DNA of 31,690 nt, taken from positions 1 through 31,690 of the IMG/VR virus record IMGVR_UViG_3300042988_000810, one strand, 5' to 3'. The notes under the pieces were generated by a model. The model worked only from the letters and a program-made list of their open reading frames with translations, did no database searches and was not told where the DNA came from. Shown in pieces: positions 647-29,652 of the stretch (the first letter of the stretch is position 1; each line of letters starts with the position of its first letter). Position numbers and translations under genes: made by a program. Source of the DNA: a virus.

Positions 647-1846
647 ATGAAGATTAATAAAGAATTTGAAACATTACTTAGTCCATTAACTGAAGAAGAA
701 TTTAGTCAATTAGAATCTAACATTCTTAAAGAAGGTATTAAAGAGCCTTTACAGGTGTGGCAGGACACATTAGTAGATGGACATAACAGGTACGTTATTG
801 CAACGAAGCATAATTTACCATATAAAACAATTGACTTAAACTTTGCGGATGAATATGCAGTAAAGGAATGGATAATAGCCAACCAAATGGGTCGTAGAAA
901 CATAACCGAAGAACAAAAAGAATACCTACGTGGTATGCGGTATAGCTGTGAAAAGCAAAAAGAAAAACAAAGAAATGAAGATGGAACATTTTCACCTGGG
1001 GAACAAAATGTTCCCCAGGCTAAAACAGCAGAACGTCTTGCTAAAGAATACGGTGTAAGCCATATTACAATTAAGCGCGACGAAAAGTTTGCGGACGGTG
1101 TCAACGCTATTGCAGCAATCAACCCAGAATTAAAGACGAAGATATTGCAAGGTAAAAGCGACCTAACAAAACAACAGGTGCAAGATATAGGTAATACTAA
1201 AGACTTATTAACACAACCGATGACTGAAGAAGAAATACTAAGTAAAGCCAAAGAAATAAAGAAGGTTCGTGCAGAAGTAAAGAAAGAAGAAGTTAAAGAA
1301 AAATTAAATAATATTGCAGCAATTAAAGCCAAAGAAATAGAAGGTGTATATGATGTAATAGTAATAGACCCGCCTTGGCAAATGGAAAAGATAGAACGTG
1401 ATGTAGCACCTAACCAAGTAGGATTTGACTATCCTACAATGAACTATGAAGAACTTAAAAAACTATCTATACCGGCAGCAGATGACTGCCATATCTTTGT
1501 CTGGACAACACATAAACATCTTCCAGAAGCATTATCATTAATAAATGACTGGGGATTTAAGTATACTTGTTGCTTTGTTTGGCATAAGAATGGTGGGTTT
1601 CAGCCGTTTAATCTGCCACAATTTAACTGTGAGTTCTGCTTATATTGCAGGAAAGGGTCACCAACCTTTATAGATACCAAGTCTTTTAATGTCTGTTTTA
1701 ATGCTGAAAGGGCAGGACATAGCGTGAAACCTGATGAGTTCTATGCTACATTAGCCCGCACAACAGGCGGCAGGCGTCTAGATATGTTCAATAGAAGGGC
1801 AATAACAGGGTTTGATACCTGGGGGAATCAAGCAAATGGACTATGA
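647..1846 (+). CDS. ParB-domain / MT-A70 adenine-N6 DNA methyltransferase fusion
   Basis: This 399-residue protein has a ParB/sulfiredoxin-like N-terminus (about 1-100, with DGHNRY at 44-49). A helix-turn-helix-like stretch follows at about 127-151 (TAERLAKEYGVSHITIKRD), then a charged coiled linker (about 195-230). The C-terminal MT-A70 methyltransferase domain has the catalytic DPPW at 241-244 and ends with the usual HSVKPDEFY and GRRLDMFNRR blocks. Such fusions are frequent in phages and mobile elements. They are expected to transfer a methyl group from S-adenosylmethionine to adenine N6 in DNA; the target sequence cannot be read from the gene. AAGGGG gives a good ribosome site 8 nt upstream. 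The 3' end overlaps the next gene, a nuclease-like protein, by 11 nt. A striking palindrome lies inside the coding region at 995-1019. Confidence 0.9.
   Translation: MKINKEFETLLSPLTEEEFSQLESNILKEGIKEPLQVWQDTLVDGHNRYVIATKHNLPYKTIDLNFADEYAVKEWIIANQMGRRNITEEQKEYLRGMRYSCEKQKEKQRNEDGTFSPGEQNVPQAKTAERLAKEYGVSHITIKRDEKFADGVNAIAAINPELKTKILQGKSDLTKQQVQDIGNTKDLLTQPMTEEEILSKAKEIKKVRAEVKKEEVKEKLNNIAAIKAKEIEGVYDVIVIDPPWQMEKIERDVAPNQVGFDYPTMNYEELKKLSIPAADDCHIFVWTTHKHLPEALSLINDWGFKYTCCFVWHKNGGFQPFNLPQFNCEFCLYCRKGSPTFIDTKSFNVCFNAERAGHSVKPDEFYATLARTTGGRRLDMFNRRAITGFDTWGNQANGL
983..1019 (+). repeat. Overlapping alternative inverted repeats inside the methyltransferase gene
   Basis: CCTGGGGAACA (995-1005) and TGTTCCCCAGG (1009-1019) form a perfect 11-bp stem with a 3-nt loop. 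GGAACATTTT (983-992) is also perfectly complementary to AAAATGTTCC (1005-1014), giving a competing 10-bp stem. The G/C-rich stem stands out in an AT-rich genome. It lies between the ParB-like domain and the helix-turn-helix of the encoded protein. Confidence 0.75.
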
Positions 1847-6408: not shown

Positions 6409-7901
6409 TGGTTAGTATAGTTAGGGCAGTTAAAGCAGTATGGAATAGTATAACAGGTGGATGGAATAGTTGGAATAAGACTAGTTCTTCTGCTAACGGG
6501 GCATATTTCGCCACTGATAGACGCCGTGTTATTATAAATAATAATGATGGTGTTGACGGCACAAGTATTCAAACTACTTCAGCAAACCTAGAAGAACTAA
6601 TAAAACTGTCTAGAACATTTGAAAGAAACCGTGCTGTAGCAAGGGCTGCATGCGAAGGGTTTAAAGCAGATGTAATAGGAAGTGGTATAGGTATTCTACC
6701 AACTACTGAAAATGAAGACGTAAATATTGAATTACAAAAGAAGTTTAACGAATGGGCAGAAACAGCAGGGGTAAATGGTGAAAGTCTTTGGTCATTGCAA
6801 TGGCTAGCAGGCGCAGAAATATTTGTAGCAGGGGCTTCTTTATGGCGTATTATAGTTGATATTAATAAAGAAATTCCAATTAGTATACTTGCATTAGAAA
6901 TAGAATGGCTAAGTACTGAACCTATCAAACCAATTAAAAAAAGTAATTCTTTTGTAAAAGGGATAGAGTTAGATGAATTTCTAAGACCTGTTCAATACCA
7001 CCTAAGAAACCCTATGACAATGCAGGGTGAAGTAGTAGATGCAAAGTGGATAATACATTGCTATGAAAAAAGACGGGCAATGCAGGTAAATGGCGAACCA
7101 ATGTTAACCCCTGTATTAGAAAGAATTAAACAGGACGATGATTTAGTAACTATAGAATTACAAAGTTCTAAACCTGCAAACGCAGTTTCATTACTTGTTA
7201 CAACAATGTCTTCACCAGGGAAATTAGGCAGTAAGAATTATAAGACAATAGATACTTCAGAACGTGAAACAACGGTTGAACCTGGGACTATAACTTATTT
7301 AATGCCAGATGAAAAAGTAGAAGTGGCACAAACAACTAGACCTAATATGAATGTTGCAACATTTCGTGGCACACTTAGGGGCGATATAGCAGGAGCTTGC
7401 CGTGTTAGTCAAATGTGGCTAGACAGGGATTCAAGTAGAAGTAATTATTCTGCTTCAAGAATGGACCAATTAATGGAAAATGTATTAACTAGACCATTAA
7501 AAGAAATGTTTGGCAAACAAATAGCAGGTAAAGTGTATGAATTAGTATTTCCTTACATTGCACCTTATTTAGGTATAAAGGATATGTCATTAGCAAGTAA
7601 ATATGCACTACAACCAGATATGCCTGACTATGTTAATCCTAAAGAAGATATTGAAGCATCTGTCCTAGCAATTGAAAATAATTTATCAACAATAGAAGAT
7701 GAATTAAGTAGAAGGGGCAAACGAACCTTTAAAGAAATAGTCAATAAACGTGCATCAGAAGTAAAAGTTTTAAAAGGACTTGGTTTATTAAACAATGATA
7801 TGGTAGAATATAGTAAAGATGATAAGAAAGATAGTAAAGAAGCGGAACAGGGAACAGAAAACACCAAAGAGGGTGAAGAAGAAGCAGATAATAAAGGATA
7901 A
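6408..7901 (+). CDS. Portal protein, lambda family
   Basis: This 497-residue protein forms the dodecameric ring at the head vertex through which DNA passes. Family marks include the N-terminal helix RNRAVARAACEGFKADVIGSG (about 73-93) and the later block GACRVSQMWLDRD, followed by NYSASR (about 345-350) and a helical stretch. All of these are typical of the lambda gpB/HK97-like portal group. The C-terminus is very acidic and Lys/Glu-rich (KEGEEEADNKG), as is common in portals. It abuts the gpW-like gene and lies 2 nt before the protease-capsid gene, so the head genes form one operon. Confidence 0.9.
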   Translation: MVSIVRAVKAVWNSITGGWNSWNKTSSSANGAYFATDRRRVIINNNDGVDGTSIQTTSANLEELIKLSRTFERNRAVARAACEGFKADVIGSGIGILPTTENEDVNIELQKKFNEWAETAGVNGESLWSLQWLAGAEIFVAGASLWRIIVDINKEIPISILALEIEWLSTEPIKPIKKSNSFVKGIELDEFLRPVQYHLRNPMTMQGEVVDAKWIIHCYEKRRAMQVNGEPMLTPVLERIKQDDDLVTIELQSSKPANAVSLLVTTMSSPGKLGSKNYKTIDTSERETTVEPGTITYLMPDEKVEVAQTTRPNMNVATFRGTLRGDIAGACRVSQMWLDRDSSRSNYSASRMDQLMENVLTRPLKEMFGKQIAGKVYELVFPYIAPYLGIKDMSLASKYALQPDMPDYVNPKEDIEASVLAIENNLSTIEDELSRRGKRTFKEIVNKRASEVKVLKGLGLLNNDMVEYSKDDKKDSKEAEQGTENTKEGEEEADNKG

Positions 7902-7903
7902 CA

Positions 7904-9679
7904 ATGCAGATAAATAGAATAATTGAACAAATAACTACAGCAGAAGATAATAATATTATTGAATTTATTATTGCTACTGAAAGTCCAATAATTAAAACAA
8001 ATAAACAGAAACAAATACTGTTATGTAATAAAGAATCAGTTGATATAAGTGCGGCTAAAACAATAATATTGAACCACGAAGGCAACCAAGTTGTTGGCGG
8101 TATAACAGATATAATGTTCGACAATATCAATGGACTTAATTGCATTAGATGTAAAGGATATATTGACGAAGACGCCAAATTCCCCACAGGTGTGAATGTA
8201 TTAAAGGCAATGAAGTCAAAAATGGTAACAGGATTTTCAGTAGGTGGAAAGATTAATTCTTCATATCTTAATAATGATGGTGAAGAAATAGTAGAAAAAT
8301 GGGAATTGCGTGAAAGCACTATAACGCCAATTCCAGCAGATGTTAATAGTGTTTTAATTCGCCAATTACAACAAAAGGAACATAATATGGCAGAAGTACA
8401 AAAGAACGCTGAAGAAGTTCAAAAGCAATTGGCTTCTTTAGAATTGCAACGTGATATTGCGTTAACCGCCGCATCTATGGGATTAGATGCTGACCCTTAC
8501 ATTAAAGAAGAGTCAATGGTTTCTGCAATTAAACGTATGAATGCTGATAAAGCAGTCAAAAACATCCCCAACCAACAGGTAGCTTTAAACGCCACCGTAC
8601 AAGTAGACGAAGTAGATAAACTTAATCGTGCTTACACTAATGGTTTATTAAATTTGTCAGGGCAAAAAGTTAATGCTGAAGACCTTAAAGGCAACCCTTC
8701 AGTTGGGTATACCAGATTCAGCGACTTAGTTCGTAGCTATGCGGCTAAACGTGGATTTCAATTGTCAAATGATAACAATGTCATTGCACGTAATATAATT
8801 AATCGGGGCAGTAATACAGTTACCGACCAATTTAGTTCATATGTATTAGTTAATGCAATGGACAAAGCTGTAATGAATGGCTATAATGCTTATGGCAATG
8901 AAGCAGTATATTTACAATTCGCTAAATTACGTGATGTTGCTGATTATAAAACATTCTATTCATCCGCTGTTGCAGTTGGTGGATTGACAGAAACCCCAGA
9001 AAATTCCCCATTTGGTGAAATAACTAAGAATGATATGGGATATTCTAATGCATTGGCTATGTTTGGTGGGACTATAAGTCTTAGTGAACAATTAATGGTT
9101 AATGATGATTTAAACCAATTTATGGACCTTATTGCCCGCGCTGGATTCTTAGCTAACCGTGAAATAGATGTACAAGTTGCATATGTTATTGAAAACGCAA
9201 CATGGACTGGAAATACAACTGGTTCTGCTACATTAGCGACCGCTGGCAACCTTGATAAAGTTCGTGCGGCATTCCGTAGTAAAACAGACCCCAGTGGTAA
9301 AATATTAGGTGTAACACCTAAGTTCTTGGTACATACGCCAAGCCAAGCTAAATATGCTGCTGAATCTACTTGGAATGTTACCGCCCCTGGCGCAAGTGCT
9401 TTATTTAGTTCACCTGCTACCCGTGGTATGATACCTGTAGAAAATCCATTCTTAACTGGTACTTCTACTACATACTACTTATTTGCCGACCCAATGGTTG
9501 CGGATAGTGTGTATGTTGCATTCTTACGAGGTCAACGTGCCCCAGTGTTAGAAGAACAAGGTATTACTGCTGTTGCTGGACGTGCATGGAATGTAAAAAT
9601 GCCATTTAAAGCTGGTATTGCAAGTACTACTGTTGCTGGCACTATTTATATGCCCGGCGCACAACAAGGAACCGTTTAA
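7904..9679 (+). CDS. Prohead protease fused to HK97-fold major capsid protein
   Basis: The N-terminal 150 residues match the HK97-type prohead protease: NHEG with H58 as candidate catalytic His, GFSVGG with S112 as candidate nucleophile, and the typical ELRESTITPIPAD strand. A helical scaffold-like segment follows (about 160-215), then the capsid domain to residue 591. The protease presumably cleaves the scaffold segment and itself during maturation. Fused protease-capsid genes are known in phages. Unusually, there is an excellent internal ribosome site and ATG at 8387 (codon 162), exactly at the domain boundary, so a separate capsid precursor may be made in excess. AAAGGATAACA precedes the main ATG. 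It sits between portal and decoration genes. Confidence 0.9.
   Translation: MQINRIIEQITTAEDNNIIEFIIATESPIIKTNKQKQILLCNKESVDISAAKTIILNHEGNQVVGGITDIMFDNINGLNCIRCKGYIDEDAKFPTGVNVLKAMKSKMVTGFSVGGKINSSYLNNDGEEIVEKWELRESTITPIPADVNSVLIRQLQQKEHNMAEVQKNAEEVQKQLASLELQRDIALTAASMGLDADPYIKEESMVSAIKRMNADKAVKNIPNQQVALNATVQVDEVDKLNRAYTNGLLNLSGQKVNAEDLKGNPSVGYTRFSDLVRSYAAKRGFQLSNDNNVIARNIINRGSNTVTDQFSSYVLVNAMDKAVMNGYNAYGNEAVYLQFAKLRDVADYKTFYSSAVAVGGLTETPENSPFGEITKNDMGYSNALAMFGGTISLSEQLMVNDDLNQFMDLIARAGFLANREIDVQVAYVIENATWTGNTTGSATLATAGNLDKVRAAFRSKTDPSGKILGVTPKFLVHTPSQAKYAAESTWNVTAPGASALFSSPATRGMIPVENPFLTGTSTTYYLFADPMVADSVYVAFLRGQRAPVLEEQGITAVAGRAWNVKMPFKAGIASTTVAGTIYMPGAQQGTV
8374..8389 (+). promoter_or_regulatory. 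Internal ribosome binding site and ATG inside the protease-capsid gene
   Basis: AAAAGGAACATAATATG places a strong AAAGGA site before an in-frame ATG at 8387. It closely resembles the sites before the decoration gene (AAAGGAACAATACAATG), the gene at 13139 and the gene at 30384. Initiation here would give a 430-residue scaffold-capsid protein without the protease. Confidence 0.65.
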
Positions 9680-9694
9680 TAAAGGAACAATACA

Positions 9695-10063
9695 ATGTCT
9701 ATTACATTTAATAATTATGCTGATACTGTAGTTAAAACAATCACTGGCACGGCAACTGTTGCGACACTTTATGTGTTAAATGGTCCTGCTTCTACTAGTG
9801 AAGTCGATGGTATTGTTGGTATTGCAACCGACACCGTTACCAATGGCGATGCCACTTATAAAATTGCAGGTCGTGTAGACGGCGTTGCAAAATTAACTGG
9901 CGAAACATTTTCTTTCATGCAAAACTTATTCTGGAATGTTGCTAGTTCTGGATTGACCGCTACTTTTGCTAGTGGTTCAACTACGCCACACGCTGGTCGT
10001 TGTGGTAGCAAAGGTGGCGAAGCTAGTACTTCAAGCACCTGTACTTTATTCTTAAATGCTTAA
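9695..10063 (+). CDS. DUF2190-like capsid decoration/stabilisation protein
   Basis: This 122-residue beta-rich protein follows the capsid gene. Features shared with DUF2190 proteins are an early VATLYVLNG, then GVAKLTGETFSF, LFWNVASSG and a final AGRCGSKGGEASTSSTCTLFLN-type ending, as in small trimeric decoration proteins of the gpD functional class. It would bind the outside of the expanded head. The ribosome site AAAGGAACAATACA is strong, suiting a protein needed in hundreds of copies. A strong intrinsic terminator lies just downstream, which would help uncouple head gene expression from the following genes. Confidence 0.7.
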   Translation: MSITFNNYADTVVKTITGTATVATLYVLNGPASTSEVDGIVGIATDTVTNGDATYKIAGRVDGVAKLTGETFSFMQNLFWNVASSGLTATFASGSTTPHAGRCGSKGGEASTSSTCTLFLNA

Positions 10064-27102: not shown

Positions 27103-29652
27103 TTATTTTAATGATAATGAAATTAATTTTCTTTCATATTGCAATAAAAATTTTTCTATTTGGTTTTTTAATTTTATATTATTTATATTAAAATCAATAG
27201 ACCATTTTGTAGAATATTTCTTAATAAATTCAATTAATTTATTAACTTCATTAGTCCACACTACTGCATCATTTTCTATTTTAATTATACCTGTGGTAAT
27301 GGCATTTGCGTCCATCCATAACCACCAAGTTGTAAATTCTACTTCCCCTTTTACTACTTCGCCCTTAATTTTACTTAGTACTTTTTCTTCTACATCTTTA
27401 ATAGAATAACCAGTAGGTTGCTTGACTTGCACTGGTGCTGGTGCTGGTGCTGGTGCTGGTGCTGGTGCTGGTGCTGGTGCTGGTGCTGGTGCTGGTGCTG
27501 GTGCTGGTGCTGGTGCTGGTGCTTCTTCTTTAGGTTGTTCATATACCCAAAGATTACCTAAACTAGTGCGGCGTTTAACCCAATTAAATGATTTAAGTCT
27601 ATTAGCTATAACCACATCGCTTTCTTTAATATCACGACCGAAGTGGATTTGCATTCTTTTTCTAATTTCTTTAATAGAAACGCCATTGGTTGGCGAACCA
27701 TTCATTTCTACAACAATTGGCATACCGTCCATACCAACTATTTCACCTTTAACGCATATTACTTTCCATTGTTCTTCGTCAAGCCAAACTTCAACGTCTG
27801 ACTTCACGCGTAATTCTTCTTGTGATTGTAGAATTTCATCATCAATGCTAATATCTTTGTCAATATCAACGCCTTGCCATAAAGCTTCATAGTCAATGCT
27901 ATTTATTTCTGAATAATCTTTTACCCCGTCCTTCATAACAAAGGTATTTTTACAATTAATTTGGACAAATCTTCTAATACCTGAATTATCTTTAATTAAT
28001 TCATTAATAGAAAAATTACTATCACCAATAAATGAACAACGGTTTTTATAAGAAACTGCTGTTTCTGAAAACATTTTTCTGCCTGATACTTTTTCAGCAG
28101 ATATTAAACGTTTAAGCCCATTGGCGTCAGCCCTTGAAAAACCTTGCATTTCTTCAGAATAATTCACTAGGTTATCCGCTAAAATATTTTGACTAAATTT
28201 ATCCGACACAAGGACGTCTATTGGCGTTTTACTAACTTTATTTAACTTGTCTAATGGCTGTAATAATAAACGGATAGCCATTGACTTCCCCGTCCCTTGT
28301 TTACTAAAAAATACTGGCATTATATGGTTATATACTTGTTTTTCATAGAAGTTCTTTTTAACATTTACTATAAATTTATATAAAGTATTATAGCACTTCA
28401 TTACATCTTCTGGAACTGCAATTGCTTTACAGAATTTCATTAAATTATCATTAATATCTTCCTTGTAATTTAATAAATTATTTAAGTCAATTCTTTGCTT
28501 ATGTAAAAAATCATTATGTTTCTTTGCTGTGTAATTAGCAATTACTTCTTTAATTTCATTAATACGGCATTTATGTCCAATAGTTCTTAATGTAATTAAT
28601 GTTTGTTCAGCAACACTTGTTTGTTTAATTTTATTAAAATAAAATGTATCTTCTGATATTACATATTCATATTTATTAATTAGGTTTATTATTGCTTTTT
28701 CTAATTGAATGAAGCGGGCTGCTTCTTCTTTATCAACTATAAGGTCAACAGATACTTGGTTATTTAAAAAGTGGTCCAATGTCTTGTCCGCACCTACACT
28801 AATTACCATATCGTTGAAGTCAGACCCCTTTTTACCAACGTCTAATGCAACAACATATTTACCTTGGACGTCTTGTAATGCGTGCTTCGCTTCATTTTCA
28901 CTTTGATGTTCTGGGTCGTTGTCGCAAGCAATAATAACATTTTTATTATGATTTAATAATTTAACAATTCTTGGTATTGACCCGCAGTCAAAGCAAATAA
29001 CAATACAGTAATCAGTGCTTAATATAGAAGCTAATGACGCACCTGTTGCATATCCTTCACAAAAAACATAATTAGGGGCTTCAGCCTTACCTATTAAAAA
29101 ATAACCCTTTTTACAACCAGGCGAAAACCGCTTCTTTGTTGTTCCATCTTCATTATCAATGATTTTCTGAAATCCACACACTACCAGTTCTTCGTCAAAC
29201 ATTGGAATATAAACAGTATTAGAAGTTGCTTCTGCCATACCTAATTCACTACCCATTAAAGATACTTTTTTTCTATTAAGATATGGCGTTGTTTTACATT
29301 TATTCTGTATAGTTAAAAATTCTTCTACTGCTTTAATACGGGCTTCTTCGTGTTGCTTAAAACCGTCCTTGACTAACCAGTCGTTTAATGAATAGTCAAC
29401 TTTATTTCTTGGTGTCGTTGCTACACCTTTGACTTCAGGACGACGAAAGTTGTAATAAAGAATGGCGTGACCTTTACCAGCCCGCTTAAGACTTATTGCT
29501 TTATTGCCTTTAAATGAATTAACATCGTCAATTCTTATTGCACGGTCGCTTTTAGATGTAAATATTTTATCTATAAAATCTATAGATATTGGTTGTGATA
29601 ATGCAAATGATAATTCCTTTGCAATATGTTCATAAACAGTTGTTATACCCAT
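27103..29652 (-). CDS. Primase-helicase (TOPRIM plus P-loop helicase) with Ala-Pro linker
   Basis: An 849-residue replication protein. A TOPRIM-type catalytic core runs from about 195 to 285: FCEGYATG with E199, ACDNDPE with D244 and D246, and KGSDFNDM (D278). A P-loop helicase of the VirE/SF3-like primase group follows, with SKQGTGKS at 450-457, NYSEEMQGF near 497-505 as candidate acidic box, and IGDSN at 542-546 with GIRRF as sensor/arginine region. A tandem Ala-Pro linker of about 15 units, encoded by the repeat at 27434-27523, separates a roughly 110-residue C-terminal domain (KQPTGYSIKDVEEK and onwards). It would prime and unwind DNA at the adjacent origin. GAAAGG precedes the ATG. Confidence 0.88.
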   Translation of the reverse strand: MGITTVYEHIAKELSFALSQPISIDFIDKIFTSKSDRAIRIDDVNSFKGNKAISLKRAGKGHAILYYNFRRPEVKGVATTPRNKVDYSLNDWLVKDGFKQHEEARIKAVEEFLTIQNKCKTTPYLNRKKVSLMGSELGMAEATSNTVYIPMFDEELVVCGFQKIIDNEDGTTKKRFSPGCKKGYFLIGKAEAPNYVFCEGYATGASLASILSTDYCIVICFDCGSIPRIVKLLNHNKNVIIACDNDPEHQSENEAKHALQDVQGKYVVALDVGKKGSDFNDMVISVGADKTLDHFLNNQVSVDLIVDKEEAARFIQLEKAIINLINKYEYVISEDTFYFNKIKQTSVAEQTLITLRTIGHKCRINEIKEVIANYTAKKHNDFLHKQRIDLNNLLNYKEDINDNLMKFCKAIAVPEDVMKCYNTLYKFIVNVKKNFYEKQVYNHIMPVFFSKQGTGKSMAIRLLLQPLDKLNKVSKTPIDVLVSDKFSQNILADNLVNYSEEMQGFSRADANGLKRLISAEKVSGRKMFSETAVSYKNRCSFIGDSNFSINELIKDNSGIRRFVQINCKNTFVMKDGVKDYSEINSIDYEALWQGVDIDKDISIDDEILQSQEELRVKSDVEVWLDEEQWKVICVKGEIVGMDGMPIVVEMNGSPTNGVSIKEIRKRMQIHFGRDIKESDVVIANRLKSFNWVKRRTSLGNLWVYEQPKEEAPAPAPAPAPAPAPAPAPAPAPAPAPAPAPVQVKQPTGYSIKDVEEKVLSKIKGEVVKGEVEFTTWWLWMDANAITTGIIKIENDAVVWTNEVNKLIEFIKKYSTKWSIDFNINNIKLKNQIEKFLLQYERKLISLSLK
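27434..27523. repeat. 15-unit GGTGCT hexanucleotide microsatellite
   Basis: Fifteen exact tandem GGTGCT units (90 bp). On the coding (minus) strand each unit encodes Ala-Pro. There is no synonymous variation, which suggests recent expansion or ongoing slippage. Gain or loss of units keeps the reading frame. Confidence 0.95.

Follow-up and report, generated by a model that had tools for sequence, protein, structure and literature searches.

A probable internal start for the capsid precursor in a fused phage protease-capsid gene

When the prohead protease and the major capsid protein of a phage are encoded by one gene, how does the phage avoid a protease on every subunit of its shell? This question is raised by a fused gene in a virus record of IMG/VR, of which the stretch of 31,690 bases analyzed here is termed the window. 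A first-pass annotation had pointed to a ribosome site with an in-frame ATG at codon 162 of this gene and had read it as an internal start for the capsid precursor. This reading was examined in the window and among related fused genes.

The fused gene and its internal site

The gene is preceded by terminase and portal genes, and its product was matched by NF045541 (NCBIfam, prohead protease/major capsid fusion proteins) and by phrog_4523, 'major head and protease protein' (Table 1). The NF045541 score of 156.5 is below the curated cut-off of 525, and thus the window protein is a divergent member. A prohead protease and an HK97-fold capsid domain of Pfam Phage_capsid_4 (PF25209, aa 307-565) were found in one ORF, which places the gene among the prohead protease/major capsid fusions. 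In an AlphaFold model built on a 48-sequence alignment, the protease was followed by a disordered linker, a helical region and a capsid domain whose best Foldseek matches were encapsulins and HK97-fold phage capsids. Residues H58, S112 and E137 were invariant in the alignment, with the catalytic residues of the U35/S78-type protease intact; judged by sequence, this fits an active serine protease of that type.

Table 1. Features of the fused gene in the window (positions of the window), and of related genes in other contigs (contig handle before the position).
Feature	Position	Strand	Basis or remark
Fused prohead protease/scaffold (delta-like)/HK97-fold major capsid gene	7904..9679	+	591 aa; NF045541 1e-45, phrog_4523 2.7e-47, PF25209
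Upstream Shine-Dalgarno (SD; AAGGA, 5 nt spacing) and ATG of full-length protein	7894..7906	+	Overlaps portal gene end
Protease domain, aa 13-152	7940..8359	+	TIGR01543 aa 54-149; alignment; AlphaFold pLDDT mostly >88
Disordered linker, aa 154-168, holds M162	8363..8407	+	AlphaFold pLDDT <50
Internal SD, AAGGA, 7 nt 5' of internal ATG	8375..8379	+	Kept in relatives
Internal in-frame ORF from M162, predicted 430-aa scaffold-capsid precursor	8387..9679	+	Frame, SD and conservation
Helical scaffold/delta-like region, aa 169-300	8408..8803	+	AlphaFold secondary structure
HK97-fold capsid domain, aa 303-591	8810..9676	+	PF25209; Foldseek matches
Second fused family, PF04586 and PF05065	L252-L254, L256, L259-L338		Conserved boundary Met, often MKEKILRDxxGN, behind SD
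Separate protease and capsid genes in close order	L388:1664-2400; L075:264-1000		Protease stop codon overlapping capsid SD

The predicted site was readily located: positions 8373-8389 read AAAAGGAACATAATATG, in which the in-frame ATG (8387-8389) is codon 162 of the fused gene. That this ATG lies precisely at the end of the protease also held, as the TIGR01543 match ends just before it and the modelled protease at about residue 152. Since a disordered linker separates the modelled domains, M162 is in a flexible joint between protease and scaffold region. The product predicted from M162 would have the layout of HK97 gp5, a delta-like region and a capsid domain.

Among the 125 in-frame internal ATGs of the 26 rightward genes in the window, only three were found to have an SD match of at least 5 nt, and M162 is the sole AAGGA-type site of these three. 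SDs of this type precede many real genes in the window, where 14 of the 26 rightward genes start behind an SD of at least 5 nt. The pattern AAAGGA-N4-9-ATG was detected 14 times in the window compared to 2.9 expected, a count reached in none of 100 shuffles, and many of these occurrences are gene starts. Similarly, AAAGGAACA...ATG was also found 5' of the genes at 9695, 13139 and 30384. The internal and upstream SDs of the fused gene are equally strong, so the sequence by itself does not show the short form to be in excess.

Two other genes of the window were noted. A gene at 647-1846 (+ strand) encodes an N-terminal region that appears ParB-type-like by eye, together with an MT-A70 adenine methyltransferase domain (aa 235-395). 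A primase/helicase-like protein with Toprim_3 and VapE-like domains is encoded at 27103-29652 (- strand); the protein has a long (PA)n repeat near aa 705-743, through which a repetitive ORF (27422-27892) is also open on the antisense strand.

The boundary start among related fusions

Whether related fused genes retain the ribosome site had been named as a check of the internal start, and the site passed it strongly. No relatives were detected when viral contigs were scanned with single sequences, those of the capsid and terminase proteins of the window; alignment-based scans of viral and genome contigs raised the set to 307 fused genes, which formed 161 clusters at 80% identity. The boundary was searched from -6 to +60 residues relative to the protease end. 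By this approach, an ATG behind an SD of at least 4 nt was detected at the boundary in 150 of the 161 clusters, with proteases of the U35/S78 or ClpP type, and behind an SD of at least 5 nt in 97 of the 161, figures that are inflated, since SD strength guided the choice of the boundary Met in this count. A clear boundary SD was absent in the other 11 clusters. Clustering at 40% identity left 26 clusters, of which 24 kept the boundary ATG and SD. Likewise, 11 of 11 divergent fused genes, namely that of the window and those of ten phage records with 17-26% identity to it, had an ATG at the protease/scaffold joint behind an SD of at least 4 nt (five with U35-type and six with ClpP-type proteases; the longest SD spacing, 11 nt, was that of the Paenibacillus gene). 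In mEp460, a coliphage of this family that grows in E. coli K-12, the boundary Met is residue 188. When the internal SD was compared to the best SD before the protease across relatives, it was longer in 61 genes and shorter in 25, with 24 ties, a comparison that carries the same inflation.

Controls in which boundary ATGs were not selected by SD are free of this inflation and were performed on the first 123 clusters. An SD of at least 5 nt preceded 32.8% of the unselected boundary ATGs, compared to 5.1% of ATGs in the protease, 1.8% in the scaffold and 2.1% in the capsid region. Random capsid windows of equal size contained such a site in 2 of 123 clusters, compared to 75 of 123 at the boundary.

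A second family of fusions, in which the capsid domain is PF05065 instead, is represented by coliphage ECO1230-10, Acinetobacter phage Alexa and Halomonas phage phiHAP-1. Here, the boundary Met was defined by a protein motif with the SD disregarded, and an SD of at least 4 nt was found at this Met in 30 of 35 fusions, compared to 88 of 724 control ATGs. Candidate boundary starts were also noted in Microbacterium phage Pondwater (AGGA-10-ATG at codon 166) and Arthrobacter phage Hunnie (codon 160), as weaker evidence from single or near-identical examples. We consider it somewhat probable that a general rule applies, by which head protease/capsid fusions (PF25209 with U35/S78- or ClpP-type proteases, PF05065 and those of small actinophages) keep the capsid start, hundreds of 'single' fusion genes each specify two proteins, of which the full-length one serves as a low-copy shell subunit that delivers the protease.

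A related capsid gene of a virus of the archaeon Methanoculleus (L255:2414-3601) is annotated 'prophage Clp protease-like protein'; its 396-aa ORF seemingly comprises the capsid part only, and a strong GGAGG precedes the start.

Alternative readings and the proposed nested pair

The conserved boundary could be read as a feature of the protein, with the full-length polyprotein as the only product and the joint acting as a peptide linker or self-cleavage site by which capsid protein is freed from a 1:1 fusion in the procapsid. Deposited records annotate the fusion as one protein, and the residues before the boundary Met are often KE, QE or EF. To separate peptide from nucleotide constraint, codons were shuffled synonymously with the peptide preserved: 49.5 +- 4.1 genes retained an SD of at least 5 nt (maximum of 200 shuffles, 59) compared to the 75 observed. 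Thus, constraint on the peptide accounts for some of the SD signal and leaves the rest unexplained. Moreover, many differing peptides were found to spell the SD, in all three reading frames (one frame dominant, 89 of 112), in a tally for which the boundary Met was again picked by SD strength. Where a Glu codon makes up the SD in the ClpP clade, it was GAG in 29 of 29 genes, compared to 48% gene-wide, whereas the next Glu codon was mixed. A cleavage site would also leave unexplained the Met itself and two further signals at the boundary that are not inflated by the SD-based choice of Met. Predicted RNA structure was weaker at the boundary Met than at other internal Mets (-6.45 vs -12.78 kcal/mol; weaker in 143 of 150 genes), and Pro followed the boundary Met in 56 of 114 cases, compared to 60 of 1962 other internal Mets. 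The base profile at the boundary was that of a ribosome-site logo, with AGGA at -11 to -8, a profile sharpened by the same choice of Met. A pure peptide motif or cleavage site is therefore disfavored by the synonymous shuffle and by the diversity of peptides and frames, and a polyprotein as sole product appears unlikely.

The site might alternatively be a relic, left when loss of a stop codon fused two genes and since then unused or only weakly used as a capsid start. Two rare relatives with separate protease and capsid genes (L075 and L388) share the same start: their capsid genes open at the position homologous to the boundary, and the stop codon of the protease overlaps the capsid SD, in junctions that read TGAGGAG...ATG, or TAGGAGG with GTG or TTG as the start. 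Thus, fused and separate forms differ by little beyond the stop codon, and the capsid start is kept in both. Some other separate-gene cases (L033 and L214) might reflect errors of sequencing or the decay of prophages. A relic of recent fusion would be expected to decay, yet the site is retained at the depth of the 40% identity clusters and under synonymous constraint, by which we regard this explanation as very improbable.

A chance match in an AT-rich genome, in which about three AAAGGA-N4-9-ATG patterns are expected per window, can be dismissed as having next to no likelihood, since the site falls exactly at the domain boundary, is kept in GC-rich relatives, and is set apart by the region and shuffle controls, the cluster conservation and the motif counts of the window.

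The internal start proposed by the first-pass annotation is supported by its conservation and by the RNA structure, codon choice and second-residue signatures of a true start. We conclude that the gene very probably encodes a nested in-frame pair, in which a start at M162 makes the scaffold-capsid precursor and the full-length protein is a minor subunit that carries the protease. From these comparisons we infer that translation initiates at M162, and likewise the ratio of the two products, their co-assembly and the direction in which the arrangement evolved. Ribosomes starting at 7904 would produce a minor protease-scaffold-capsid protein, and those entering at the internal site would produce an abundant scaffold-capsid precursor, the true precursor of the major capsid protein. 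The full-length form would co-assemble with this precursor through the shared scaffold and capsid domains, and thus a few protease domains would be placed inside the procapsid, where they would cut off the scaffold region. Since the scaffold/delta region is expected to be lost from the mature capsid protein, virions would not display the N-terminus at M162. The arrangement would act as a protease gene and then a capsid gene without an intervening stop codon, with the ribosome site of the capsid gene retained. Because more than 90% of distantly related fused genes have the same device, it is very probable that this phage makes plain shell precursors in large numbers and only a few protease-bearing copies.

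Relation to known nested and fused head genes

Protease-scaffold-capsid fusions have been described as 'common in small-genome siphoviruses' (PMC9671004). The window gene shares its architecture, a related capsid domain and the boundary SD and ATG (at codon 221 in the Gifsy-2 fused gene) with the Gifsy-2 / MD8-type fusions (PMC8508860), and differs in its protease, which is of the U35/S78 type rather than the ClpP type. In the MD8 paper the fusion is treated as one protein, and an internal start is not mentioned (PMC8508860). Our literature search, mostly of open-access papers, found no report of an internal start that makes the capsid protein itself in protease-capsid fusions, and such a start was annotated in none of the deposited fusion records examined. 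If the proposed pair is correct, it would explain how a phage whose protease and capsid protein share one gene keeps from putting a protease on each subunit of its shell; the widespread annotated family of NF045540/NF045541 and phrog_133/4523 then probably conceals a second start, and with it the actual capsid precursor.

Lambda C/Nu3 and Mu I/Z are known cases of a scaffold start nested within a protease gene, and such starts have been proposed for Mu-like phages of Pseudomonas (PMC4378225). The likeness to lambda C/Nu3 drawn by the first-pass annotation applies to the device and not to the product. Lambda C/Nu3, Mu I/Z and the window gene have in common an in-frame internal start that is served by a separate SD and lies where protease and scaffold join; the short product made from it lacks the protease. 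By contrast, the short product of lambda C/Nu3 and Mu I/Z is scaffold alone and the capsid gene is separate, whereas the frame in the window continues through the capsid domain to 9679, and the predicted short product is scaffold plus the whole capsid protein. This product corresponds in layout to HK97 gp5 (delta domain and HK97 fold), although the gp4 protease and gp5 of HK97 are encoded by separate adjacent genes instead of a fused one. Herpesvirus UL26/UL26.5 likewise gives 3'-coterminal nested products of which the short form is abundant and the protease-bearing long form minor, as proposed for the window; unlike the window, it uses separate promoters and transcripts, and its product is scaffold and not capsid. 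Thus, the proposed pair extends the known trick of lambda C/Nu3, Mu I/Z and UL26/UL26.5 from the scaffold to the capsid protein.
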